Source: Trichoderma breve
Taxonomy: Eukaryota > Ascomycota > Sordariomycetes > Hypocreales > Hypocreaceae
Assembly (NCBI RefSeq): GCF_028502605.1
Contig: NC_079232.1
Coordinates: 124,001 to 188,000, forward strand
Reading direction: 5' to 3'
Length of the DNA: 64,000 bases
Made by a program: the position numbers and the translations under genes
The notes under the pieces: model-generated
The model's input: only the letters and a program-made list of their open reading frames with translations
Database searches by the model: none
What the model was told of the DNA's origin: nothing
Part shown: positions 9,340 to 61,926 of the stretch, one piece after another
Numbering within the stretch: the stretch's first letter is position 1
How the letters are laid out: the number at the start of each line of letters is the position of its first letter

Positions 9340-11007
9340 ATGGTTTGGCAACACGGCGATCACCATGACATCCCGCAGCAATGGCGCATACACAAGTATG
9401 AATATTCCTCTTCCCGTATTTTCACTTGTCAAAGTATCAAAATCTCACGCCTTTTGACATGATTCAGGCCTGGCGCATGGCTCCCAGCTGACCATCGTGT
9501 CCATCGCGAATATCTTCGTCGTGTGACGGAGCACGTCGACAGGCACCCCGATGAAAAACTGACACCAGCGCTGCAGGAGTTCAAAGAGTTAATCGAAGGA
9601 AACTCACGAATATACATGTACTTTGTCCAAATGTTTGATGAAATCCCAAAGAAACGGCCATACTGGCGCGATCCCACAGGAACTAAACAGATCCGCGACT
9701 ACAAACACATGCTTCAGGTGCTCAACCACATTGTCTCAAGAGCTCCAGAATGGACAGATGCCGCCGAAAGTGCTGGTGTTGTGGGAGTGCCATTTTGCGC
9801 AATCCTTGATTACCCCATGGGAACACCAAGGTGCGTGGACGCGGTTTTGCAGACTCATGGATACATCCATACTTCAATGGCTGCTTGTAGTCCTTGACAT
9901 TGGGTGGCGAAAGCACTAACTTGGCCTTGTCTCAGTGGACATGCCGCGTTCCTCGACCCAGACGTGAACAAAGCGATCAAGAAAGTTCTAAACGAGTGGG
10001 GGAAGTTCTTAGAGGTAGGTGATTTTGAGCCTTCTACAGTCTCAATTGAATTCTTAAAAAATGATCAGCACCAAATGTCGGCTAACATGCATCGCAGACT
10101 CCCAAATCGGCCGAGGTGTTGGGAGAGCACAAACTGGGCTGGTTCGGCGAAACAGGACGAAACGACGTCATGCAAGTCGCCAACGCTCCGTTGAAGTCGT
10201 CCATGAAATTTGAAGAAATGTTTGTTTGTGAGCCATCGGCAAAATATCACGGCTACAAGTCATGGGATGGTAAGCTTCTGAACATGGATTTTCCCAGAGT
10301 GAAACTACACGGCAAATGCTGACAGCTCTTAAGACTTCTTCACTCGCAAGGTTCACGATGAGGCAAGGCCTGTCGCATCTCCAGACGACGACAATGTCAT
10401 TGCCAATGCATGCGAATCAAAGGTGTTCAACATTCAGCATGGTGCTCAACTGCGAGATAAATTTTTCGCAAAAGGGCAGCCTTACTCAGTACTTGATATG
10501 CTGGCTCACGATCCACTTGCTCAACAATTCGCCGGCGCCACAGTCTACCAGGCATTCCTATCGGCGTTGTCCTATCACCGTTGGCATTCCCCAGTCTCAG
10601 GAACCATTCGACGTGCTTTCGTCCAAGATGGCACGTACTTCAGCGAGCCTCTCTTTGAAGGCGTAGGTGATCCGACTGTTCATGAAATTGATACTGGCGG
10701 CATTTCGGTTGGTCAAGGCTATCTGTCTGCGATGGCAACTCGAGGCATCATCTTCATTGAGGCAGATAATCCGGCAATTGGTTTGATGGCTTTTATTGCC
10801 ATTGGCATGGATGAAGTCAGCTCGGTGGACATCACCGTAAAAGAGGGCCAACATGTGAAGAAAGGTGAACAAACAGGCATGTTTCATTTTGGTGGATCGA
10901 CGCATTGTCTTCTATTCCGAAAGGGAGTCAAGTTGTCGGGATTCCCCGAAGTTGGGAGGCAAGAAAATGTCCCCGTTCGTGGTAAACTTGCTGTTGTCAA
11001 GCCATAG
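9340..11007 (+). CDS. PSD-family pyruvoyl decarboxylase, PsiD-like (soluble amino-acid decarboxylase type)
   Basis: Exons 9340-9395, 9468-9830, 9936-10014, 10098-10269 and 10334-11007 give 447 residues. The C-terminal two thirds are phosphatidylserine decarboxylase family (PF02666): WDDFFTRK at about 222-229, YHRWHSPVSG at 304-313 with the conserved His, and the self-cleavage site HFGGST at 408-413. Ser412 would become the pyruvoyl group. The N-terminal ~170 residues (LTPALQEFKELI..., FVQMFDEIP) and the GGST in place of the LGST of true PSD match the architecture of the psilocybin-pathway L-tryptophan decarboxylase PsiD (439 residues). There is no mitochondrial presequence or membrane segment. 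I infer an amino-acid rather than a phospholipid substrate. The P450, b5 reductase and kinase genes follow directly. Confidence 0.85.
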
Positions 11008-11252
11008 GGATCGCATAATGAGCATGTGAATTGACATTTCGTATACAACGGGAGGGTCGCATTCCAGTTACAGGCAAAGTGTGGTTTCACCGATGGCACA
11101 AATATTCGGCGGCGCTAATTAGATTTAATTTTAAAATACATTAACTACAGAACTGAAATGTTTTTGGCTAGGCTTGGACGCTATATAAGAAATATAAGAA
11201 CCTCTTGTCACACAACCTTTTTGATGGTTGTCTTGTGCTCTTCACACTCGCT

Positions 11253-12720
11253 CTAGAAAATAAAGACCTGGTCGCTCATCTTCGGGTTTGCACCCGGAGT
11301 CTCGTAACCCAACTCTCCAAGAAATTTCTTGGCTGCGCCGACCATACCAGGTGGACCGCAAACCATAATTTTGACATCATTTCCCGGAAGCGGTAGTCTT
11401 TGTGCTGCCATATCTTTCGTTATGTAGCCAACTCCAGAGTTCCAAGTTGTTGATGGATGCTCAATGACGTAGAAGACCTTGAACAGCTTTGGATATAGGC
11501 GGGAAAACTTATCCAGCTCGTCTTTGAGTAATATGTCGTTCTCTGTGTGATTTGCGTATATCAGACTTATTTCTGTCGCATCACGGTCGTTCTCACAAAT
11601 CGCTCGAATGAGCTGGAACATGGGCGTGATGCCTGTACCACCAGCTATCATTCCGATCTTCTTACAAAGTCCGTTGGAGTAGCGCATTGCCCCTTTAGGA
11701 CCTCTGAATTGGACCTCATCTCCAATTTGGAGGTTGGCAAGACAGCCACCAGTCAACTTGCCGTCTGGATAGATCTTGACGAGTAATTCCAGAACACCAT
11801 AATCCAAGTTATTGGATACTGGAGTGTAAGACCTTGTCACCTTGTCTCCATCAATGTTCATCGTAATAGCGACGTGTTGACCAGTCGGTAGGCCTAACAT
11901 TGCTTCTGGCTGAGGTAGAGAAAATACCAAGCGGTATACATTTGGTGCAATAAGTGTCTTCTTTGTCAACGGTAGGGGAGATAACACCGAATCCAACCAG
12001 CCTCTTTGAAGTAAGGGATCCCGTGTCACTGGTTTAGGTACTTTCAGGTGATTTGGGTACGTTCTGAAGTTCGCTTCACCCATGATAATGCCAAAAGACT
12101 TCCGTATTGCAAATGATGTACAGCCCATTAAGAGTAATGAGCTACCCAGTAACCCCTTGGAGTAACTTGAGTTACTTGGTTGTGTAGAAGCCATCGGTAT
12201 CGACAAAATCGAGAGTGCATGAGTTAACTGACTCATTTGAGGCATGGCTACTGGTATCAAGGCTGAAATACCATGTTCTCCTTTAAGAACCTTGTACGTC
12301 GATGCCGCAATACCCAGGGAAAGAAATCCCAAGGTTATTCCTGCTAGGCCATGGGGTTGTTTCGTGGAATCAAGCTTCTCCAGTGGAGATTGCAAAGGAA
12401 CTGTTAGCTTTGACTTTTTGTTAACGTGACCTTTTAATTTCCCGATCCTGAAAGGGGTCATGAGGTCGAAGGCATCATCTGAGTGGCCAGCATTGTCGAA
12501 TGGTTCGCTTGCATCAGTGCCGGCTGCTTCCAAGAGAACTTCGATTCCTCCTGGATGATCCATCACATATTTGGTTACGTCGTATACTGCAAAAAGTTAA
12601 TGTCAATCGTTAAGGGGGATAATAAGCCGACGAACCTTCCCCATGGATAGTCATCCATATGTCATCAGGCTTGGTGTGCTGAGCAACTTCGTCTGCCGTG
12701 TATTCCGTTTCTAGAGTCAT
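11253..12720 (-). CDS. cytochrome b5 / cytochrome b5 reductase fusion protein
   Basis: Exons 12720-12636 and 12586-11253 give 472 residues. An N-terminal cytochrome b5 domain has heme ligands His39 (MDHPGG) and His63 (NAGHSDD). A middle linker holds two hydrophobic stretches (LAGITLGFLSLGIAAS and GLLGSSLLLMGCTSF), likely membrane anchors. A C-terminal ferredoxin-reductase module carries the FAD motif RSYTPVS (280-286), the NAD(P)H motif GGTGITPM (344-351) and CGPPGM (438-443). It passes electrons from NAD(P)H through FAD to heme, typically to a P450 or desaturase. I chose the ATG giving MTLETEYTADEV; an upstream in-frame Met would add residues unlike the family. It is divergent from the P450 gene and could be its redox partner. 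Confidence 0.9.
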
Positions 12721-12793
12721 ATTGACTGGATTTATATGTCTGAACTTGTAATTTTGATTGAAGCATTCAAAGGTTTTGGGATGCTTCTGCGAA

Positions 12794-12802
12794 TTATATA
12801 TA
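12794..12802 (-). promoter_or_regulatory. TATA box of b5 reductase gene
   Basis: TATATATAA on the minus strand about 75 bp upstream of the ATG at 12720. Confidence 0.4.
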
Positions 12803-13424
12803 AACAATTTGACCGGTATTCTGATCCATAAGAGCGCGTATGACGGGAACACTAGCATCGGTAGTTGTCGGCAATCCCAAAATAGTTTCATCCCGAGACG
12901 GAGATTGTAGTTTTCCTACTAGACGCTGATCACTGACTTAAAAACGCCGAAGCCCCACAAACGCATACGGCATCTGTCCCTCCGCGTATATCCGGAAGCA
13001 ACCATTGCGGAGTGATCTTCGACCGACAAAACTCACCCGGGCGCCAACTGCGGGAAGGAGGGTGGGTTTCCGAGGAATGCAGGCGGGCAGGGTATAGGTT
13101 GGTAAATATTAATATGTCAAAACCTACTTATGCCCTCTATTATGCATACGAAAAGGGGACATTAGCCGAGGATAGGGCGGCTTTCGCCCTGCAACTGATA
13201 CAGATGCATAACAGGATCGAATAATAATGTTACATCGTTTCTTGCTTTTCTACGTTCCACGGACCATGAAGAATATCCGAACAATGTTGGCTTTGCCCCT
13301 TTCTATGGAAATTCCACGGAGACATGCCATGGAAAGTGACCCAAGCCGAATAATCAAGAAAGTGGTAATGTTTGCGACTGTTGTTTTGTGAGCAAGTTAT
13401 CTATTAACTATTAACATCTATAAC
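12803..13424. other. shared divergent promoter region, b5 reductase and P450
   Basis: Spacer between two genes transcribed away from each other. A 70-codon open frame at 13012-13224 has no motif and is ignored. A shared promoter would allow co-regulation of the P450 and its presumed electron donor. Confidence 0.5.
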
Positions 13425-13431
13425 TATAAAG
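13425..13431 (+). promoter_or_regulatory. TATA box of P450 gene
   Basis: TATAAAG about 74 bp upstream of the ATG at 13499. Confidence 0.45.
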
Positions 13432-13498
13432 CGCGTTGGACATCTCAAAAACAGTTCGAATTGTGTCAATTATCAGCGTCTCAAAATAGCCTTTCATC

Positions 13499-15299
13499 AT
13501 GATTTCTTCGTCTTTCCATCTTTTGGGGGAGCAACCATCCACCTCCCGCCAAATCACGTTCCCTTCGAACTTCAGTTTTACGGATTTGCAAGAGTTGGTT
13601 GCATCTCACTTTGCTATTGTAGACTCTAAAGGTTAGTGTGTTATTTACAAATATTTCATGTAAACAGTGGTGCTTACGTTCTCTTCTAGATGTTGGCTTC
13701 ATTCATCAAAATATCGAGCTGACATCGGTAAACGAGGTACGCGCAGCAACCGACCCCGTTGCGATATCAATCAGTGGTAAATCTGTACGAGATATACCGG
13801 GGCCAGGTGGTTTGCCATACGTCGGAAGCTTTTTCGAAGTATATCCCGATCATCTTGGAAACCATCAACGACTCTTTAATAAATACGGATCACTATTCGT
13901 CACCACCAACATGGGAAGCCGCATACACCATACGAATGATCCTAGTTTGGCCAATCTCTTCTTCACCGAGAGTGCATTCTTTTCAAAAAAGATAATCCCC
14001 AACCATCCCATACATCCGTTGGGTATGCCAGAAGCTGGATTGTTTTTTGGCGATACAGATTCGGAGGCATGGCGGATTACGCATAAGTTTTTACCGCCAG
14101 CTTTGGGCCCCAAGGCAGTACGACACTACGCACCAGCAATGCAAAAAACAGTGGAAGAGTCATTCAATGTATTCGACCAATTGGACCTGGATGGGGAAGC
14201 ATGGAACGTATTTCCATACATGATGAAGATCGGTTCTCAAGCAGTCGGCAGACTTGTTCTTGGTATGGATTTCAACCACTTCGCATCTGTTGATGCTCCT
14301 TTGCACGAGTTTGTGCTCAAGCTCGCGCATAATGTCGAACTGAGTAAGCGAGTGTCGTCTTTCGGTAGCTGGTATGCAAACATGCCCTTCGGAGACCCCA
14401 AAAAACTTCGAGACAATATGCACGAAATCCAGAGGATGATATTTGAAGCATCCAAGAAAGCATCCACTGGAGTTGAAGATTTAAACCTCCAAGATGCTGC
14501 TCTACAATCTCAAAATTTGGTCGGTAAGTACGAACCCATTGTTTCTATCTTTAGCGGGCTTAAAGCTGACTAGTAATTACTCATGGTAGACTACTGTCTC
14601 AGGGCAAGAGACTTGAAAGGCAATCGATTGACGTGGGATCAATTTGTACCAGCTCTGGTTGTGCTTACCGGCGCTGGGTTTGTAACCTCCGCTTCACTGC
14701 TCTCGTGGATGATATACGCCCTTGTGACCTACGAAGGGATGCAAGAGAGATTGCTCCAAGAATTGATTGACCACGATTGGGATGAAAACATCCAAGTGAC
14801 CGGAGATATGGTAAATGAACTGAAGTTTTTGAATAACTTTATCAAGGAAACTCAGCGGACACACAATCCTTCGTTCCAGCCCGCCAGAACAGCCTTAGTG
14901 GACATGATCTTACCTGGAGGGTACAGGTTGGCAAAGGACTCTATTGTTGTTGCTGATTTGCACCACATTCACAACAACCCACACATCTGGGATAACGCTG
15001 AAAAGTTTGACCCTGACCGGTGGGACACTGAGAAAGTTAAAAATCGACCTGCTGGATCCTATCAACCTTTCGCCTCGGGCCCGCGGAGCTGCATTGGATT
15101 CAACTTTGCACTCCAAGAGGTCAAAATCGTCCTATCTAAGCTGCTGTACCGATACAGATTTAGTTTGGCCGAAACGGGAACCGTGGAGTATAATCCTTAT
15201 TATTTACTGATTAAGCCTAATAACTTATATGTACGAGCAGAAAGGAGGTTCAAGTGGCCACAGAAGACTTCTGCTAGGACTGATCCATTGACAGAATGA
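13499..15299 (+). CDS. cytochrome P450 with atypical soluble N-terminus
   Basis: Exons 13499-13631, 13690-14523 and 14590-15299 give 558 residues. P450 hallmarks: proline-rich IPGPGGLP at about 80-87, I-helix GAGFVTSA at about 350-357, K-helix ETQR at 409-412, DPDRW, and heme loop FASGPRSCIGF with Cys490 as thiolate ligand. Two oddities. The first 80 residues are polar and contain no transmembrane helix, unlike microsomal P450s. The I-helix has the conserved Thr, but Val replaces the acidic residue before it, which may change oxygen activation. The flanking b5-reductase fusion gene is the obvious candidate redox partner, and decarboxylase and kinase genes flank this pair. I infer hydroxylation of a decarboxylated amino acid. 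Substrate not proven. Confidence 0.92.
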
Positions 15300-15586
15300 G
15301 GATGAGGTACTTCGTCTTACAACGATGCTGGACTTTTTATATACTGTTTTCTTTTATACTACAATATCTCTCAACCAGATTGTTCGATTGAACACAAATT
15401 AATTGAGTTCATAAATAGTGATAGTGGCATCATTCAACCTATTTCTCTGACACCAGTTGGGACACAATTTGTTGATCCAGGGGAATAGTTCAAAATGGAA
15501 TGACAGGACATGCACAATGAAAGTTATATAATATTTAGATCTCAAATACCTAAACAACGCTATCCTGAGCTTTCATACCTCGTAAT

Positions 15587-16819
15587 TTAGGATTGGCGGT
15601 GAAGCCAATCTCTCCAGCCATCATCTTTAGTAATAAACCTCACTCTTGATTCAAGCCATTCTGTATTCCCCCAGAATCCCCATGATGCTTGGAATCGACA
15701 CCAGTCGACAAGGGCAGTCTCCCAATGTCGAAGAAATTCGTCCCAGTCGTACATGGGTACTTTTTCATGCGGTTGGCTTTCCATTAAAATGGTCCAATAG
15801 TGCTTCAGCAACTTCTTTTCTCGTTCATCCATATCCAAGCCGTCTGGGATGGAATCATCACTGGTAAGCATACTCATTGGGACAGAGCAAGTGAATAACT
15901 TTGCCAGATCACAAACGCCCAATCCTAACCCCGCATACTGGAAGTCAAAAAATACCACATCATCTCCAGCTTCTGTCGAATACAGATTTTCTGACTTCAC
16001 GTCCCCATGAATGTATGTTTCAAAAGGCCTACCACGCGGCGTGAGAAAGGCGGCGGCTTTTTCAGCAACGGACAGGGATCCATCCACTGAGGTACAGAAT
16101 ATATCAGACCACTCTGAGAACTTGTCATGCTCAAGCGATCGATATTCCTGTCGTCGGGTAGCTAGATATGTATATCCTCCATTCAACCAAAGGGCATTTC
16201 CACCTGATGCGGGATCATTTCGACGTCTTGAGGCTTCTTCAAGCGGCGGTAGAAGAAACTCATCCAAACTTTCAGGCAAATAAGACCATGAGTTGCCATG
16301 AAACTTGGCCAACCATGCTAGAGCTGCATAGACCTGATTGCTTGAAAGCACCGCCCTTTTTTCGCCAGCAATGGGAAACTCAAGCCTCAAATCATTCATG
16401 AGAGTAACCATCAAATGATCAATTCCATTCTCAATGGCTTTTCCCTTCATACTTCTTGTCGAAGCGAAGCATTGTGCTACTGCTATGGTGTCCGTGAGGC
16501 GCGGAGCAACTTCATCGTAAAAGTACTGCTCAACCTCGTAGCTGAACATCTTACGAAGATGCCCTTCATCTCCAGTTGTAGCTGGAGGTCGAACTATCTT
16601 CAAAACGAGGTGGATTATTCTGCCTTGGTCATTTCCCTGGTCTTTGGAGAAGCGCTGCCACCGTGTGGTCGCGCCTTCAGTAGTTGGTCGAGCAGAAACG
16701 GCGCAGATGTGGCCGTAGCCCGCCCAGAGGCCTTGAAGGGTGGTGCATGAAATTAGCTCAAGGTCGAGCCAAGAGAGCAGTATGGCTGCAATTTGACTTG
16801 GCTCAATCGGTCGAGTCAT
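15587..16819 (-). CDS. APH/choline-kinase-fold small-molecule kinase
   Basis: Intronless, 410 residues starting MTRPIEPSQ; the codon further upstream in frame is GTG and is not used. Protein-kinase-like fold of the aminoglycoside phosphotransferase/CHK family: the Lys in LVLKIV (about 74) is the likely ATP-binding residue, Brenner motif HGDVKSEN at 271-278 has the catalytic Asp, and FFDFQY near 291-295 holds the metal-binding Asp. Such enzymes phosphorylate hydroxyl groups of small molecules (choline, ecdysteroids, methylthioribose, 4-hydroxytryptamine). There is no signal peptide. It is convergent with the P450 gene, 287 bp away. In this setting I infer that it phosphorylates a hydroxylated amine, but a detoxification role is equally compatible. 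Confidence 0.85.
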   Translation of the reverse strand: MTRPIEPSQIAAILLSWLDLELISCTTLQGLWAGYGHICAVSARPTTEGATTRWQRFSKDQGNDQGRIIHLVLKIVRPPATTGDEGHLRKMFSYEVEQYFYDEVAPRLTDTIAVAQCFASTRSMKGKAIENGIDHLMVTLMNDLRLEFPIAGEKRAVLSSNQVYAALAWLAKFHGNSWSYLPESLDEFLLPPLEEASRRRNDPASGGNALWLNGGYTYLATRRQEYRSLEHDKFSEWSDIFCTSVDGSLSVAEKAAAFLTPRGRPFETYIHGDVKSENLYSTEAGDDVVFFDFQYAGLGLGVCDLAKLFTCSVPMSMLTSDDSIPDGLDMDEREKKLLKHYWTILMESQPHEKVPMYDWDEFLRHWETALVDWCRFQASWGFWGNTEWLESRVRFITKDDGWRDWLHRQS

Positions 16820-29722: not shown

Positions 29723-31648
29723 ATGGATACAGATCGCAAGCGGTGGGTTGGTCTTCAGGTCAGGACAATTAGTCAGAAGAGATATCGATGAATGCTAACC
29801 ATATCTACAATCACTAGCCTCCAAATGAATGGAAACTCGAGCAAGGATTAGATCCCGCTCATCTTGGTTTACGGAACCAGAGCAATCTCGTGATTCATAC
29901 GGAATCAGAATCACCTACGGAGACAAATTCAGCGGAGCTTCGTGCAGATGCGGATGATGATGATCCGACATTTGTAGTTGGGGAAGAAAGAAAAGGGTGG
30001 AAAGGATACATAGAGTGGGAAGAATATCCAGAGAAAAAGGCCAAAGCTCGGAAGAGATTTTCACGCCATAAATTTCCTCCACCTCCCGAGTTCCAACTTG
30101 GGCCAGTCCCGGCTACCAACCCAGTCCTTGAAGGTGTTCGATGGAAGCTGTGGCATAAAGCTATTGGCGGTGCTCTCGTCAACGTACCTGAAGACAGCTG
30201 GAAGACTGTGCTAGAGGTATTACCCCGTACCCTACAATTGAGGATGTATGCAGTAGACTAACTATTTCTTACAGGAAAAACACCCGGGCATGCTCCATCT
30301 TCTTCAGTTCCCATACAATGGCGAACCTCCTAAAGGCCTTCTCACCAAAGAAGCCATAACACCAAACGACCTTCATTTTGTACGCAACCATGGTGGCATA
30401 CCAGACATTGATCCGGTAGAATTCGACCTTCGTCTTGACGGCTTGGTAAATGATCCCAAAGTTCTCACGCTGGATGATCTAAAGAATGAAGCTTTATTCC
30501 CGCGCACCTCTATGTTGGTTACTATTCAGTGCAGTGGTACGAGGCGCGTTGAGCAGATTGGTGAATATGCTGGTGAAGGCGACGAGATGATCAATGCTCC
30601 ATGGGCAGAAGGAGCAATTGGGACGGCAAAATGGACTGGCGTCAGTCTCAAAAAGGTCATCAAGTACTGTGGTGGACTCAAGGGTGATGCAAAACATCTT
30701 GAGTTATATGGAGCCGAAACATATTTCAAGGGTGGCGATTGCATGAATTATGTGGTATCGGTTCCGTGGTCAAAGGTCAAAGCAAACGAAGTCCTCCTTG
30801 CATGGGAGATGAACGATAAGCCTTTGCCCAAGATCCATGGTTTCCCACTGAGGGCTGTGGTCATGGGCTATATTGGCGCGAGGAGTGTCAAGTGGCTCTA
30901 CCGCGTTAAAGCAATCGAGAATCCCAGCCGTGCTCCTGTCCAGAGCAGAGAATATCTGTATTTCCAACAGCAATATGGAAAGCATAATCAGCTACCTACG
31001 CGTAAGAAACTCCGCTATGTTAGACCATGACGGTTATACTGATTTGCAAGCAGTGGGAATTCAGATTCAAGAGATGCCGGTCAGCAGCGCCATCATGAGC
31101 CCTTGGCATAAAGAAGTTGTGGTCCATAACGGTCATATTGAAGTCACTGGTAAGATGCACCGTGCTTTTGTTTTATGCGACTTTATGGCGTGCTAACTGT
31201 AGAAGGTTGGGCTTATTCTGGTGGTGGACGCTGGCCGGAGCGCGTCGAGGTCTCTTCGGACGGTGGTTGGGCTTGGTATGCTGTACCAATCGAAAATCTG
31301 TCGCCAAAGCACAAATACGCATGGAGGACTTGGTCCGCTTCTATTCCATGCGACCATGAAGGATGGACAGAGCTCGTCGTCCGCTGCTGGGACAACAGTC
31401 TCAACACACAGCCAATGAACGTGCGCCACAGCTGGAATTGGGGGCTGCACGTTACGAGCAGCTGCCACAGAGTGAAGATATACAGCGTCAATGCAAGCCG
31501 GCCCGAAACAAAGAAGAGGCTGGAACTGTTTGAACAAAACGGAGAAAATTTCCTGCCAATCACACGGCCAACGGAGTTTAAATACATGAGTGCCGAGGAA
31601 TATGAGAAGGCATGGTCTACTATGGAACCACGAGATGTGGACAATTGA
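29723..31648 (+). CDS. molybdopterin oxidoreductase, sulfite oxidase / nitrate-reductase Mo-domain type
   Basis: Exons 29723-29758, 29818-30216, 30275-31001, 31051-31149 and 31203-31648 give 568 residues. A polar, Asp-rich N-terminus leads to a Mo-cofactor domain (PF00174) with FVRNHGGIP, the likely Mo-ligand Cys231 in TIQCSGTRR and HGFPLRAVVMGYIGARSVKW. A Mo-co dimerisation domain (PF03404) follows: PVSSAIMSP, YSGGGRW, W..NTQP and WNWGLHVTSSCHR. The N-terminal pattern is that of eukaryotic nitrate reductase. The protein ends after the dimerisation domain, with no cytochrome b5 or FAD module, so it would need a separate electron partner. The acceptor at 31051 could shift by 3 nt (CAG). Substrate unclear. 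Confidence 0.88.
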
Positions 31649-33561: not shown

Positions 33562-35422
33562 CTACAAGATACCAGTTACCATTCGTGCGTCAATTAATTG
33601 AACATAAAACGCTAAAAGAGTTAGTCCGTCATCTTTATTCAAATGAAGTAAGTGAGAGACTTACCGGCCGCCCTCCATCTCTTGCTTATTATGCTCAGAG
33701 CGTCTTTGATCGCGTTACATGATGCTGCAGTGCTGGGATCGCCTGTCCTCGAATATTCTTGAGCGTATAGTACTGCTCCCCGATAAATCGCCTCTAAACA
33801 AAGCGGCGTGATTTCCTCCGCGGCACAACTATTCGTGGAGATTATTGTATTAGCTAATCCAAGCATACCAACAGCAATCTCATGCTTAAAATCTTGTGAT
33901 ATGAAGTTGTCTGTCGAGGCGAGCGGCTTTTTGCCGGGTGCATATCTTTCTTTATCGTGTAGAAGCAACCGAGCAATGAAGATCTGTCAGTCTAACTGAA
34001 TATCCTTAATAAGAACGTGAGCACTTACCTGTAGCAGATAGTTGAAGGGCTACATACAGCAATGCCACGAAAGCGACCCTCTTCCAACGAAACATTTGTC
34101 AATGCAACAAGAGTATTATCTAATACTTTGACATCGTTTTGCCAAAACTCTTCTGATACAGGGAACTCATGTATGCTACGAAACACCCTACCCAGAAGGA
34201 CTGCGGCTTGCGCAGTCAAGGAGAAGCGGCCCATTGACGTGGTCGGTGGCTCAAAGAGCCTGCGTACCGGAGCATCGGTCTCTCCCTAAGCCGTCATAAG
34301 CCATCAAATTTGCATCTTTTTGCACAACTCATCAATCTTACATTTTCCTCCCATATAGTGTCGTCAATAGGTAACAAGCTGTTACTGCTAGGATCTGGTG
34401 TGAGAAAGGCTCTTTCGGCGCTACCAAGGCTTATAAAACTATTAACAGTTAGCCTCAATGATGATTCTTCCATGTTTGACACAAAGCATCAAAGTCTCTC
34501 AATGGAAGTACGAAAGAAGAGTCCCAGTAGTAACAACTAAAAAGAAATACTGACCGATCTAAGACCAATATGGTCCACCAGCTTCTACGTCGCTCTTCTG
34601 ACTCGGTAACACTGAAGGTCTCTTCTGAATACTGCTCCACTGCTCTGTGAATGCCCAACGCAGTCCCATACCGTATACAGTAGCCCACTGTTAAGTATGC
34701 CGCAGGATAAATAGAGTGCCCAATCTCGTATACTGCAACGAGGATGATTGCTTGTAGTACGCGCAGTTCCAAAACACTTGAGTGTTCGGCTTCTAGTAGG
34801 CTGTTTTTGATCGCATAATATGCACCGCTTCGTGGCCCTTCGTCTTCTAATGGAGTTGCTAATAGCTTCATTGAAGCAACAAGAAGGGTGTTTACTGGTC
34901 GTTGAGGAGCCAGTGGATTTAAAACTCTCTCCTTAAACCCTCTTTTCGATAAAAATGGTATCGCTGGGTGAATACTCGCAAAGTATGAGCCTACAAATGC
35001 TCTATCAGACGCATCGTGACCAATGTAGCTCAAGAGCGGATCGCCGAGGCTTAATTCTAGTTCTGGTAACCGATTCAAGGAGCGCTGAAAAAGAACAGAG
35101 TCAAGGAAGAACACTACAGGAAAGCTTTCTTCGTTCTCCTGGGCAGCTTTCGACGGCGATTGAGATGGGGCAAGTGTTATGGGTGCTTGTTCATTTCCAA
35201 CGATGCCCACGGTGCCGGTATAGATGCATTCTCTCCCATATCTGACCGTTAGTGTATTAGAATTCGACTCTTCATTTAGCCCCCGAGCCTAGTTTTAACT
35301 TACCGCACACATGCAGAGCATCGGGGCTTCTCTCGGTCGCATCGCTTCTTTGACCTTTGACACTGCGAACATGATGGGCGCATGCGAGGAATAATCACGC
35401 GAGCCTCATTCTCCGCGCTCAT
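33562..35422 (-). CDS. Zn2Cys6 fungal transcription factor with probable frameshift
   Basis: Exons 35422-35304, 35241-34555, 34438-34342, 34285-34029, about 33983-33665 and 33611-33562. The zinc cluster is complete across the first intron: SCSQCQRSKKRCDREKPRC followed by SACVR/YGRECIY. The middle region (YEIGHSIYPAAYLTVGYC, RRRSWWTILVLDR) matches the regulator at 1-1748, and the introns fall at the same places, including an equal 97-nt third exon. At the exon 4/5 junction (34029 to 33983) canonical splicing reads YRSSLLG and then loses frame, while LLLHDKERYAPGKK continues in another frame. This suggests a one-base indel near 33975, or use of an alternative GTATGT donor near 34053. It could be a damaged paralogue or a sequence error. 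Confidence 0.8.
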
Positions 35423-55156: not shown

Positions 55157-58100
55157 TTACTGGAACATCCAGGCAATCTCTCCTAGAGAAGGCGCTCTAA
55201 GTATATCGCACAAATCTCCACGTAACCCATTCTCGCCTAATAAATAGTGAAGCCGGAGTGCTGTTATAGATGTTCCTCCCAGGTCATACAGTGTCGTCTC
55301 GGGTGTAATGCCCTCTGTCTGAATGCCTAGTGCCTCAGAAAAAGCCTTGCGAACTTCATTAACCCTCTTGTGATAAGACGGCATAGCTTCCAATGGATCG
55401 TAGTCATTCAATAGCCTGAATGAGAAAAGAATTTCAGCCGGTGCCGAGCCAGATAGAAGGCCCTTGAAGACGGTCGGGATGAAGGACATAATCGCTGCCA
55501 TTTGCGGCGGAGACAGAACGCCAGCATTGTACTCGATGCCGCAGTGCAGTCCATCATCCTGCTCGCTAAATTCTAGCTGCAATGTAAATTTGGCTCCTCG
55601 CGTTCGAATGCGTTCGCTCGAAACCTGAGCGCCAGGTATCTTGAGGGAATGCTCCAGTGCATCAGACTGCCAGTGATAAATAACCACAACATCAAAGAGA
55701 GATCTCCGATCTTTTGCCAATTGTAAAATTTCTGAATAAGGCATCTGGTTTTCAACCGAAAGGTTAATTTCCGACACGATATCGTTGATGAGCTTACTGG
55801 AGTCCACCATGTTATTATCATCGAGTTTTATGCGCAATGGTAGCCTGTCGAGAAGGAGGCCCATAATGTTCGCCGCCCCAGGCTCGTCTCGATTCATATA
55901 TGGAATTCCTAATACAATGTCGCTGTAACCGAACACTGTATAAAGTGTAATTGCGGACGCAGCTAGGGCCATACGCTGCGAAAAGCCCTTACCATCCGTA
56001 GTTGAGATGATGATGGATTCATAACCAGGTATCTCATGACCCGGCCTTCCAAGTTCATGTTTGCTTAATAACGGAATTGTCTCTATTCTTCTAACACGAT
56101 CGTTCCAAAATTCTCGCTTCGCTAATTTTGTTGGCGTTGCAGGTAGGGAACTGTTCTTTTGAAGCCACTGCGTCCATTCGAGATAGGTGCCCTTGTGCGT
56201 ATTTTCATCAACAGCTTGCCCATTGCAAACTGCGGCATCGGCTGCTGCCAGGTATTTCTGACTAATTGATTGTAGCAAAAGGGCAAGCGATGCCTTATCT
56301 GTAACGATGTGATGCGTTATAAGTGAGAGCGACGTCTTTGTCGTAGCATGCTCATCTTTCTCTGCACAGATAACCGCCCTAATGAGTTGGTCATGGGCCA
56401 GGTCAAAAGGTTTATCTATCAGGGCCTGTAGGTCCTTGGAACCTATAGATCGCCCCGAGAAGACCAAAGGTGGAGTAACTTTATCGCTGACGAGCCGGTA
56501 GATGAACCCTTCTTTGAGGACATAGCGAGCTCGAAGAATTGGGTTTTCTTGGATTACAGAGATCAAACATTCATTCAACAGCTTAATGTTGACATCACCT
56601 TTAATGATGAATTGGAATGCGGTGTTGAAGAGCGACTTCGTGTTCGACATGATGTGCCATAAATAAAATTCTTCTTCGAGTTGCGACGGTATTTGTGCTG
56701 CCATTATACTTGGCGGAGCGGACAGAGTGGATAGGAACGACTTGAATGTAGTAATTCCATCCTCTAGCTCATCAAGAGCTGCAAATCGATCGATTTCTTT
56801 TGCAAGATTTGATAGAACTGTTTCTCTGATGAGAAGTGGCACCGGAGTGTGATGACCTGTGCGCTCAGCGATTAAACGAGCTGCCTTGATAGCTAGTAGA
56901 GAGTTTCCACCAATGGCCAAGAAATCATCATCTCGGGAAATTTTTCGCTCATTATTATGACCTTGGAAGTCGAGAACTTTTCTCCAAATTTCTGCTATCA
57001 ACTTTTCTGTCGGCGTTGACGGTGCATCTCCTTGGTCCAGGTTTTCAGTAGCCAACTCCCGAAGAGCTTTGCGGTCAATTTTGAGATTAGACGACTGTGG
57101 CAAGGATTCTATCGCTATTACCTGCGCAGGACAAGCGTAAGCGGGTAGAAACTTCTTGACCATTCGTCCAGCTGATAAAACATCAACAGTACTTGGCGTG
57201 ACAAAGGCTACAAGACGGACACGGTCGACGACAATTGCAACAGCGCTTTGTATAGAGGAATCTGCACGCATAAGAGCGCTTTCGACTTCTTCCATTTCAA
57301 TTCGGTATCCTCGCAATTTTACCTGGTTGTCAATTCGTCCCACGTAGGCCACTTTCATGTCTTGTGTCCAATAACCGAGATCTCCAGTCTTATACATTAC
57401 TTTGCCAAGAGAGAAAGGGTTTGGAACAAATGCATTCAAAGTTTCGGTTTGTAGATTCCAGTATCCGTCAGTAATTTGTTCTCCAGAGATGTAAATCTCT
57501 CCTGTGACTCCAATGGGAACTAAACACTGGTGATGGTCTAATAGGTAGATATCCAGATGGGGGACGACTTTTCCGATGGTGACTTGCTCTCCAGGGCGAA
57601 GCTCAGTTCGAGTCGAGATAGGCCCACACTTTCACCAGCAACCAGCAGTGTCAGTCGACTCTCTCATAAGTCCATCTACATATGTCTAAAGATTGACTGT
57701 GACTCACCTCGCTCGGTCCGTAAAAATTGAACAAGCGCTTATGTGACCATCTATCTGCGAGGCTTTGGGGAACAGGCTCTCCAGCAAGACCAATCGTTTC
57801 GACGTTGGAGAATTCTTCTGGCGACAGAGCTGCTAGCAGTGATGGCGTAGAATAGGTTGCATCTACACGCTTGAGGTGCCCAAGAGGATCACTGGGGTCT
57901 TTCAAAACTAGTGTCCCACCATAACATATTGATCCAAATAGCTCAACGAGCACTACGTCGAAGCCTATTCAACAAAATGGTGAGTACATCAGCGTCAGAG
58001 AGAATTTTTCTGTGGCAAGGCATATATAAATAAAGCGTGTTCCACTCACCGAGAGCGTAGACTTGAGCATGTCGGCGACCAGGCCTAGAGAACATTCGGT

Positions 58101-61100
58101 TTACTTCATCGTCGATGACCATAAGAATGCTACGGTTATGCAAAGCAACACCTATAGAATAATTCAACACCATATTCAAAGAATAAGATACAGATAGTGG
58201 ACAGATTATTATACCTTTTGGAATACCAGTGCTTCCCGAAGTGAAAACAAGATAGATGACGTCTTTCGGCTTTGAAACGGTTCCAGGTGAAGATGATGGT
58301 GTTTTGCACGACGCGAGAAACTCGTCAGAAACTATGATACGACTTCCTTGTAAAGCTTGAATCACTCGTGCGCAATCTTTGTTGGCGGCGATAAAAATGG
58401 TGGCACCGCTTTGTTGGATGATGACTTCAATCCGTGCTGCTGGAAGACTAACGTCAATGGGACAGCATATACAGCCCGCTTTGAGAGCAGACAGAATAGC
58501 TACAACCCAGTGGAGGGATCCATCGGTAAGAATACCAACAACATCTCCAGGGTTTGTTATGGACCGGAGATGGCTGGCCAGCTTATTAGCAGATTCATCC
58601 AACTCTCGATAAGTCATTGAACCACAGGTTGACTCCAAAGCTGTTAAATCTGGCCACTTCGCTGCAGCAGCTTCAAAAGCATCTTTGACTGTATCATATC
58701 CTTGATAGTCCCTTCCTCGCTCTTGTTTCGATGGACTTAAAAGCGTTTTTTTCTCTTCTTCCAGAATTATACGGTTTCTAACTTGCTGCATTTGACTATT
58801 GGAGCAGTCGAGTAACCCCTCAATCACACGCTTAAAATGGTTCAAAAGACCGACGACACTCTGCTCGGTATATAGCGAGCCATCGTACAGAATGCGGGCC
58901 CGAAGACTGCCATCGCTTTCATCCTCAAGCAGAAGAGTTATGCCAAATTCCATCATGTCTTCTCGTTCAATTTTCCATGGCTTTGGTATCGCCTCGCAAG
59001 ACCCCGATTGTGACGGGAGATCGTACTCCACGACCACAATTGTCTGGAAAGCATTGGCTATCCTTTCGGATGGCATTTTGGCCAGGGCATTATCAGCGCA
59101 CCATTGGAACTCGAGCATCTGTAGCAGCTGACTCTGAGCGTCAGAAAGTATATCAGCCACAGATTGGCTTTCTTTGAACTCGAGGGGAAACGGGCATGTG
59201 TTGAGCAGCGGCCCGACGACTCGATCGGCTCCCGCTGCATCGATATTCCTTCCAGAAAACACCACACCAAAAGCCACTCGGTCAGAAAAGCTATAATTTG
59301 ATAACACCAATCCCCATGCTGTATATATTGCCGTCGCTGGTGTAATACGACGAAGGCGACTTTTGGCTTCCAGCTCTTTCGATCCAAATCCAAGGTTGAC
59401 TTGCAGGCTCTTGGACCAGTCAGCCACTGGAACATCGACCGATGGTTTCGGCAGCCTCAGCTTCGGTTGCGCCAAACCGTCCTTTAAGCATTTCTCCCAA
59501 AATTCATTGCCTTGAGGGTCTTGTTGCAGTCGCTTTTGAGCTAAAGCGATGTTGATGAATTGCGGAGGCTCTGAGAGCGGCTTGCCATCCAATGCTAGAC
59601 GGAGCTCTTCTAATATGATGCTGAATGACCAACCATCCACTAAACTGTGGTGCACCAGAGCCAAGAACGTAGAAGCAACATTGGGAACTATGATCAAGCG
59701 ATAAGCTGAAATAGGGATAAATGTGTCTCCATCTCCCAAGTATGAGATCCTCTTGCGCATTTCTTGGGAGCGTATCCGAATCACACGTTCTAGCTGGTCG
59801 CGAGTTGTTTCCTCATTTTTCCAGTCAAGGTGAAGCTTCTGTTGTACATGTTGTGTTTGATCTTTGAGATTGAAGGCTGTGCGAAAGATTGAATGTCTCT
59901 CAATGACTTGTTGCCATGCGGATTGAAGCGTTTCTCCACTAAATGCATTGCCTGAATATGGGAGAGTCATACGCAACAGCATGTAACTCGTGGCAGGATT
60001 TCTAATTCCTGTTCGAATCATCTTGGTCTGAAGAGACGTCATGGGTCCTGAAGCTAGAGTCGGCTTTTGGTCTGAGGTGCCATCCTCTTCTTCGGTACCA
60101 ACAAATTTTGCCATAGCATCATGAATAGTAGATAGATTTGGTAGATCAAAAAGCGGTCCAAGCCGCATGTGGAATCCTTTGGTACGCAGAAAAGATAGCA
60201 CTTTCAATCCTGCCAAGGAATTTCCTCCTAATTCAGCAAAAGAACTGTTGTCAGGGATCTCCGATGGCGGTAGAGATATGGCAAAAGAAAGCGCAGCTTT
60301 CAGTATGTCCATTTTTGAGCCATGACTGGACACATCATGTACTAGATTGTCGCCACTCAGCAGCGCTTGTAAGGCACGGTTGTCGATTTTATCATTTGCA
60401 GTAAGTGGAAGGATTTCCACTGGACGAATAATATCCGGGATAATGAAGGAATCGTATTTCTCAGTCAAGATCTTCCGCAACGCGACCCCATCAATGTCTT
60501 CCGGCGTTACAAAGGCCACAAGGCGGCCTTGATGCATAAAAGCCGTAGCCGCCATAACCTTCGGGTGGCTGCATAACATGGGAATCACTTGTCCATCAAG
60601 GCTCACAAGGAATCCACGGTTCTTGACAATGTTGTCCTTGCGTCCGGCAAATTCTAGCCCGTGGTCTGTCCATCGTGCAAAATCCCCAGTGCGATATATC
60701 CTTTCGCCTTGCCAATAAACAAATTTGTCAGCTGTAAGTAATTCATTCTCATAGTATCCTCTGGCTAGGCCTGGTCCAGCAATGCAAATCTCCCCGTAGT
60801 GAGACTCGGCTTGCCCATCAAGTAACATTACACGGCTGTTTGACATTGGACGCCCCAAAGTGATTGGCTTATCAGGGTAAAGTCGAGACACCAGACATGC
60901 AAAAGTAGTTTCTGTAGGCCCGTAGAAGTTATATATGGGAGAAGTCGGCAAAGATGCTGCCCACTTGCGAACCAGTGAAGCGGGGGCTGCTTCTCCCCCA
61001 ATCATGATGGCTCGCAAGTTGGAATAGCTCGCCGGATCCTGAATTGTAGCCAACACTGAAGGTGTACATGCCATAATTGTGCAGAGTGTCGCGGTGTACA

Positions 61101-61824
61101 AGAAATCGGCCGGAGTGGCAATCTTCAGCTCCGCGCCATTACACAATGCCGACACGGTAACAGCCGTGCAAGCATCAAAAGCGGGAGAAAAGATTAAAAT
61201 AACTATATCAGCTGGAGACGAGCTCAAGTTGAACGGTGTTATTTCTCCTCCTTGTTGGACATAATTTAGGACTGAACTGTGAGGAATCATGACCCCCTTT
61301 GGCGTAGAGGTTGTGCCTGATGTAAAAATTATAAAGGCAAGGTCACTGGGATCAATTCGTTTCCAGGGGCGATCCAGTTCGTTATCCCAGTGTCGCTCGA
61401 TGGTCGGTGTAAAGGCACTTTCGATTTCTTTCAGCGAAATTTCCTCGTATCCAGGATATTCCTCCGTACTGGTATTCAAAACGACACGGGCAGATACTCG
61501 CTTCAGCGTTGATTGGATGCGATCTTTGCTCCAAGATTCCACATCGACGGGCACGTACAAAGCGCCTGTCTTAAGAACGCCTAAGAAGCAAATTACCATT
61601 TCGGGGCTTCTCTGGGCCATGACAGGGATTTTATCGCCGGACTCGATTCCTCTCTGCAATAAAAGCCATGCAATATGAGATGTAGCAATGTCAAGCTCAG
61701 CGTATGTAATCTTTCTGTCACCAAAAGAAATGGCAACATGGTCAGGCTGCTTCTGTGACCATTCTTCGATGAGATCACATATCGTTCTAGGCTCTTTGTG
61801 AGCCCTTTCAGCGGTAATCGCCAT
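55157..61824 (-). CDS. two-module NRPS, A-T-C-A-T-C-T, diketopiperazine-synthetase architecture (GliP type)
   Basis: Exons 61824-58215, 58151-58050, 57964-57708 and 57628-55157 give 2146 residues. Domains: A1 about 20-490 (FTSGTTSTPKGV, YRTGDFARW), T1 with Ser536 in ELGGNSL, C1 about 595-1020 with HHSLVDG (725-731), A2 about 1045-1510 (FTSGSTGIPKG, YKTGDLGYW), T2 with Ser1566 in AIGGNSL, C2 about 1630-2050 with HHIVTDK (1762-1768), and T3 with Ser2110 in LGGTSI at the C-terminus. Both A domains keep Asp at the amino-group-binding position (AFDAC, GFDVV). There is no leading C domain and no thioesterase. The order and length equal those of gliotoxin-type synthetases, so a cyclic dipeptide product is likely. 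Amino acids unknown. Confidence 0.92.
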
Positions 61825-61926
61825 ATTTGATCTCCCTTTTGGCGCCGGCGTGGCAATTGATGAGTTTTGTGACCAAAGTGAGAGGTATTATCGGGATCGG
61901 GGGGAGGCTAGACGTATTCTGTTATC

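Follow-up and report, generated by a model that had tools for sequence, protein, structure and literature searches.

The closest described counterparts of the genes considered here are PsiD, which opens psilocybin synthesis in Psilocybe cubensis (PDB 8x4q, 8zia), the arginine decarboxylase of Aspergillus oryzae (PDB 9jer, 9jf5; hereafter 9jer) and the CYP540 cytochromes P450 (P450s) of fungi. In PMC6121855, a GGSS motif is put forward as the hallmark of tryptophan decarboxylases, and in PMC11808438 the motif of the psilocybin kinase PsiK is given as DXE. PMC5985579 places the Trichoderma P450 group that includes CYP540 under primary metabolism. The present analysis concerns a 64,000-nucleotide stretch of the Trichoderma breve genome, referred to as the window (bases 124,001-188,000 of the 7.59-Mb contig NC_079232.1; genome of 38.5 Mb in 9 contigs), in which four adjacent genes at positions 9340-16819 encode a decarboxylase, a cytochrome b5/b5-reductase fusion, a P450 and a small-molecule kinase.

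An earlier note on this DNA had read these genes as a psilocybin-like set of enzyme classes. The four genes proved real and intact and Pfam agrees with the classes assigned to them, but it is likely that they do not form a pathway of the psilocybin type. The reading that we prefer, to which we give an even chance of being right, is that of a conserved amine-forming decarboxylase of the PsiD branch lying beside a duplicated, Trichoderma-only oxidation unit made of the P450 and the b5 reductase, and beside a kinase acting on another small molecule. A psilocybin-like assembly is possible, with support that does not extend beyond adjacency within one genus.

The decarboxylase and its distribution

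Homologues with an E value of 0.001 or better numbered 5981 for the decarboxylase and 951 for the kinase, and the P450 had 778 homologues; the best 120 of each were listed and are the homologues referred to below. The decarboxylase matches the Pfam domains PSDC (193.5 bits, cut-off 23.4) and PS_Dcarbxylase (124.6 bits, cut-off 22) and shares 36.7% identity with PsiD across 365 aligned columns. In a tree of 14 rows, to which the 120 listed homologues contribute only 9 rows in addition to the window protein, the window group and PsiD stand together against 9jer and two paralogues of the same genome on contigs C5 and C7 (support 100/97). The approximately unbiased test rejected the alternatives to this topology with p values of 0.007 to 0.012, that joining the window group to 9jer having a p value of 0.00714. 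A larger tree, in which the branches of phosphatidylserine decarboxylases (PSDs) are very long, disagrees and sets PsiD among Dothideomycete rows with 9jer and the C5 and C7 paralogues; since these long branches were flagged, we take this placement as a long-branch effect. Kinship of the decarboxylase to PsiD is supported by these comparisons. A genuine PSD would be in keeping with the PF02666 domain that these proteins have in common and with a Foldseek match to the PSD of Escherichia coli. This identity, to which we attach next to no probability, was rejected on the separation from the PSD-like genes in the tree, on NCBIfam models that stay below their cut-off and on the PSDC domain. As the earlier note had proposed, the protein is thus, as judged from its tree position and its Pfam and NCBIfam matches, a PsiD-type enzyme that does not cluster with the true PSDs.

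In an alignment of 62 of the 120 listed homologues, Ser412 is kept throughout (62/62) and is followed by S in 49 and T in 13; His308 is likewise invariant (62/62) and D224 is found in 59, all of these residues being present in the window protein. The histidine is the predicted relay residue of an Asp-His-Ser triad like that described for PSDs. The catalytic residues of the decarboxylase, like those of the kinase described below, are intact in the predicted proteins. The decarboxylase would cut itself at Ser412 to form a pyruvoyl group, on which the amine of an L-amino acid would be bound as a Schiff base with release of CO2, and it would in this way likely turn an amino acid into a free amine as an activity of its own.

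An aromatic amino acid is a more likely substrate than arginine, since the decarboxylase sits beside PsiD in the sequence comparisons. Were the enzyme instead to act on arginine like that of A. oryzae, it would feed agmatine or polyamine metabolism. We regard this as very unlikely: the 14-row tree, though not the larger one, keeps the two groups apart, and the second His of the YHRWH motif (His308), kept in the window group and in PsiD, is N in 9jer, S in the C5 paralogue and D in the C7 paralogue. The Asp before FF, likewise kept in the window group and in PsiD, is also N in 9jer, which has a nearer relative in the C5 paralogue (43.2% identity) than in the window decarboxylase.

The GGST cleavage site, which the earlier note had offered as a telling feature, is indeed present but is not diagnostic. 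The window protein lacks the proposed GGSS mark of tryptophan decarboxylases, whereas GGSS is found in 92/120 listed homologues and also in a PSD-like gene on contig C8 of the same genome. The remaining 28/120, with GGST, comprise every Trichoderma-named row as well as Fusarium and Cordyceps rows. Because both forms occur inside one close group of homologues, the motif says little on the substrate and was rejected as a sign of it. The published literature searched did not give a substrate for this decarboxylase group, and a search on PsiD-like enzymes and on 9JER found nothing useful. In the extracts of PMC5299017, tryptamine appears in connection with Trichoderma only as a chromatography standard and within a reference title.

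The 120 listed homologues, out of 5981, are all 68-93% identical to the window decarboxylase; among their sources are Hypocreales and further Sordariomycetes, Dothideomycetes and several Mycena. The larger tree mentioned above holds 33 of these homologues, and in it the Trichoderma decarboxylases form one clade (support 99) within an 18-row, mostly hypocrealean group (99). This looks like mostly vertical inheritance of an enzyme with a role of its own, not bound to one cluster. In the 20-kb stretches surrounding the C5 and C7 paralogues, we found no P450, APH or EcKL match (for the P450, 92 of 186 candidates were scored).

Two further observations were made on this family. The Mycena decarboxylases (P0046, P0055, P0064, P0115 and P0118) are of ascomycete type, with 69-73% identity, and lie near Xylariales rows in the tree, which suggests acquisition by transfer from ascomycetes. 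At C2:6590363-6590892, weak PSD-family matches, one of them with in-frame stops, perhaps mark an intron-rich or broken gene.

The P450 and its b5-reductase partner

Searches of the genome with each protein found divergent pairs of P450 and b5-reductase genes at four places, namely the window, C1:284-287k, C2:4707-4711k and C1:2804-2808k. The paired matches outside the window, P450 with reductase, are C1:284381-285199 with C1:286209-287522, C2:4707607-4708446 with C2:4709788-4711131, and C1:2807283-2808092 with C1:2804579-2805301. One more related P450, the fifth, lies at C4:3446838, where a b5-domain match 11 kb away is all that was found of a partner. Because the divergent pairs recur at four places, the b5 reductase goes with the P450; the two would be a Trichoderma-only duplicate of an older pair and likely work as one oxidation unit. 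Electrons would pass from NAD(P)H to the FAD domain and then to the b5 domain of the fusion, and from there to the P450, which would hydroxylate the substrate. A comparable arrangement is that of the asperlin cluster of Aspergillus nidulans, where AlnD is paired with the b5-reductase-like AlnC; a literature search on alnD found nothing useful.

The nearest relatives of the window proteins are from Trichoderma, the P450 being 98% identical to a T. afarasin protein among the matches listed. A P450 tree was built with 43 rows, of which 38 are from the 120 listed homologues. In this tree the window copy falls in a clade of six Trichoderma rows (support 100) that is joined to the C2 copy and a T. 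arundinaceum protein (97) by a rather long branch. The closest paralogue of the window b5 reductase is also the C2 copy (56%), whereas the exon identity of the window P450 is 59% with the C1:284k copy and 56% with the C2 copy. The I-helix motif AGFVTS occurs in 5/120 listed homologues, which are exactly the five other Trichoderma rows of the window clade, against AGFTTTS in 112/120. By tree and motif alike, the window P450 is a member of a Trichoderma-only clade. Its relative P0252, 64% identical, carries the name CYP540B16, and the family label rests on the name of this one listed homologue. No hydrophobic stretch is present at the N-terminus of the P450 (highest 19-residue mean 0.64), and the b5/b5-reductase fusion has two moderately hydrophobic stretches between its two parts.

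The stretch at 13499-13790 encodes about 80 P450 residues ahead of the Pfam-matched part that belong to no Pfam family; the first 42-44 of them recur at two of the four paralogues. At C1:277260-287522, the C1:284-287k pair, which is the second P450/b5-reductase pair near a contig end, adjoins genes for a polyprenyl synthetase and for a zinc-type regulator. The likeness of this regulator to that at 82-1725 in the window raised the idea that the latter had been duplicated together with the P450 pair, which was rejected since six other matches in the genome score higher.

The kinase

The Pfam match of the kinase to EcKL (PF02958) scores 48.4 bits (cut-off 22), and the protein has the HxDxxxxN and DFQ motifs, which together place it among the EcKL/APH small-molecule kinases. 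The EcKL family is named for insect ecdysteroid kinases; we know of no function for its fungal members, on which a literature search found nothing relevant. H271, D273 and N278 are invariant in the 60 aligned rows, window included, and so is DFQ (60/60); FDFQY is found in 118/120 listed homologues. The enzyme would transfer a phosphate from ATP to a hydroxyl group.

The DFQ of the window kinase replaces the DXE of PsiK, and PsiK was not among its sequence matches. In the AlphaFold2 model (mean predicted local distance difference test score 83.3), the fold is as near to choline kinases or methylthioribose kinases as it is to PsiK, or nearer, and Foldseek alone gave weak matches, for example Plasmodium choline kinase with a template modelling score of 0.41. 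The statement of the earlier note that kinase and P450 look unrelated in detail to the psilocybin enzymes agrees, for the kinase, with motif and fold; for the P450, the CYP540-named ascomycete relatives and the N-terminus devoid of a hydrophobic stretch may point away from PsiH. Several Colletotrichum homologues of the kinase are about 460 amino acids long and two, P0144 and P0148, are named pig-p domain protein, perhaps from a fused gene model.

Association of the four genes in other fungi

Gene order in other fungi was deduced from the locus tags and longest-contig values of the listed homologues. Truncated tags were excluded from the counts, as were 'DRAFT' numbers, whose order can differ from that of the genes, and a longest-contig value, which is taken over a whole 90% cluster, is weaker evidence than a tag. 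The tags of decarboxylase and P450 are distant in all six comparable annotations outside Trichoderma (Conoideocrella luteorostrata, Hirsutella minnesotensis, Fusarium zealandicum, Anthostomella pinea, Cytospora chrysosperma and Monosporascus sp. CRB-9-2), and those of decarboxylase and kinase in 3/3 (Cosmosporella sp. VM-42, Neonectria punicea and Tolypocladium paradoxum). In Cladobotryum mycophilum, decarboxylase and kinase have the same 7.6-Mb contig value, which does not give the distance between them. Since close homologues of the decarboxylase are kept where the tags lie far apart, this enzyme does not need the P450 or the kinase as neighbours. The three P450 paralogues of the other pairs also have different neighbours.

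The association of the four genes appears to be a Trichoderma feature. The window-clade P450 is listed in five Trichoderma species; the kinase is found as well in species without such a P450 among the matches listed, and the decarboxylase in T. gamsii and T. arundinaceum without kinase or window-clade P450 among the matches listed, both of which are weak evidence. The decarboxylase and kinase of T. novae-zelandiae have the same longest-contig value (2,583,132), and the kinase and P450 of T. compactum have differing values of 37,457 and 3,101, of which the latter is too small to be informative.

Several facts weigh against the reading that we prefer. The P450 and the kinase of T. virens FT-333 bear the consecutive tags TrVFT333_000099 and _000100, the only adjacent pair in three comparisons (F. 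nematophilum and Penicillium robsamsonii have them far apart), and in T. chlorosporum the decarboxylase, the P450 and the kinase all have a longest contig of 915,965 bases. Complete lack of synteny, which the earlier note had named as grounds for abandoning its proposal, is therefore not what was found. Random placement brought a PSDC gene, a P450 and an APH kinase this close in 0.0002 to 0.00035 of simulations, a figure that holds for a trio named beforehand and overstates the case for one named, as here, after the fact. Fungal P450, kinase and decarboxylase genes lying together often make up a pathway.

These facts could be accommodated by a pathway cluster confined to Trichoderma, in which an amino acid would be turned into an amine, hydroxylated by the P450 with its b5 reductase and converted into a phosphate ester, as a convergent analogue of psilocybin chemistry. 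The set of enzyme classes is fitting, the 14-row tree groups the decarboxylase with PsiD, the neighbourhood is kept at least in part in T. chlorosporum and T. virens, and the spacing is compact, with gaps of 245 bp (convergent, decarboxylase and b5 reductase), 778 bp (divergent) and 287 bp (convergent, P450 and kinase). We nevertheless find such a cluster improbable, given a decarboxylase conserved yet unlinked in other fungi, the Trichoderma species with decarboxylase or kinase and no window-clade P450 among the matches listed, and the P450 paralogues, whose three pairs elsewhere have different genes around them. The three promoters tell against it too, having no 8-letter word in common (0 found, 0.975 expected). 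Its fuller version, that some Trichoderma reinvented the psilocybin logic with other parts, is a long shot: an arylalkylamine from the PsiD-branch enzyme would be oxidized by a CYP540 P450 with a private b5/b5-reductase and esterified with phosphate by an EcKL kinase, giving a phosphorylated hydroxy-amine new to ascomycetes.

PsiM is of the family PF05971, an assignment that draws in part on the DUF890 column of PMC6121855. A methyltransferase of this type is absent from the set, as the earlier note had remarked: none lies near, and the genome matches are confined to C4:3981385-3982282. According to PMC12603985, two mushroom psilocybin pathways already run on enzymes unrelated to each other; a convergent pathway could thus be built from unlike enzymes, and unlikeness would not by itself exclude one. 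More weight against a psilocybin-like pathway falls on the independent distributions of the genes. The psilocybin-like set once proposed thus lacks support from a kinase without DXE, from the missing methyltransferase, from the want of linkage elsewhere, from promoters without words in common and perhaps also from a CYP540-like P450 that comes with its own b5-reductase partner in a unit found four times.

Plain coincidence, with three unrelated roles and a duplicated pair that landed in a contig-end region, is unlikely but deserves more weight than a pathway. The window is 124-188 kb away from its contig end, the three distributions are independent and wide, and the absence of common promoter words suits chance as well; on the other side, the T. 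virens tags are consecutive despite a protein divergence of 16-17%. A conserved decarboxylase beside a separate oxidation unit and kinase is still the account that we prefer.

Gene models and other genes of the window

All four genes could be modelled as stop-free coding sequences, with introns of the GT-AG type, and the ends at 9340 and 16819 are correct (Table 1).

Table 1. Positions of the four genes and of their predicted functional sites in the window
Feature	Position	Strand	Details
PsiD-type decarboxylase gene	9340..11007	+	Exons 9340-9395, 9468-9830, 9936-10014, 10098-10269, 10334-11007; 447 aa; PSDC + PS_Dcarbxylase
His308, second His of YHRWH, predicted relay histidine	10585..10587	+	Alignment of homologues
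GGST, predicted self-cleavage site; Ser412 (10897-10899) to pyruvoyl group	10891..10902	+	Sequence, alignment
Cytochrome b5/b5-reductase fusion gene	11253..12720	-	Exons 12720-12636, 12586-11253; 472 aa; Cyt-b5 + FAD_binding_6 + NAD_binding_1
Divergent region common to b5 reductase and P450, 778 bp	12721..13498	.	Gap computed from gene models
CYP540-like P450 gene	13499..15299	+	Exons 13499-13631, 13690-14523, 14590-15299; 558 aa; Pfam p450
EcKL/APH-fold kinase gene	15587..16819	-	Single exon, 410 aa; Pfam EcKL + APH
Kinase predicted metal-binding DFQ, residues 292-294	15938..15946	-	Alignment, 60 rows
Kinase catalytic loop HGDVKSEN, residues 271-278	15986..16009	-	Alignment, 60 rows

To the left of the decarboxylase, the first short-chain dehydrogenase and the dienelactone hydrolase have an assigned Pfam domain. 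The zinc regulator and the second short-chain dehydrogenase, which the earlier note thought might belong to the set, show no special tie to it and come from large families with 33 and 85 matches in the genome. Another zinc-type regulator, at 34455-35288 (minus strand), is 36% related to that at 82-1725 and belongs to the same family of 33 matches. Elsewhere, the window encodes a molybdopterin oxidoreductase domain (30257-31030, plus strand) and a gene of the non-ribosomal peptide synthetase type (55157-61887, minus strand) with two long open reading frames and AMP-binding, condensation and carrier domains.

Significance and comparison with known systems

Among the ascomycete groups compared, the nearest to PsiD is that of a decarboxylase conserved in many filamentous ascomycetes. 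To learn what it acts on would inform the question from what PsiD evolved, and could bring to light an amine widespread in fungi. The recurring pair of P450 and b5/b5-reductase, if confirmed, would mean that some fungal P450s have dedicated electron partners instead of the common reductase. Should the genes form a cluster after all, phosphorylated hydroxy-amines would have arisen one further time.

Set against the described systems, the decarboxylase differs from PsiD of P. cubensis in that its group is spread across filamentous ascomycetes with no psilocybin cluster around it, and from the arginine decarboxylase of A. oryzae in lying on the opposite side of the 14-row tree and in keeping the two residues that are N in that enzyme. 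The CYP540 P450s, represented by CYP540B16 of Coniochaeta and by alnD-named genes of Penicillium and Cladobotryum, are 59-67% identical to the window P450 among the listed matches outside the Trichoderma clade, whereas the window protein belongs to that clade and has a changed I-helix motif. The kinase departs from PsiK and from the methylthioribose kinases, with DFQ in place of DXE and a match to Pfam EcKL, and resembles in this domain match the fungal EcKL kinases; it has 951 homologues at the threshold used here.

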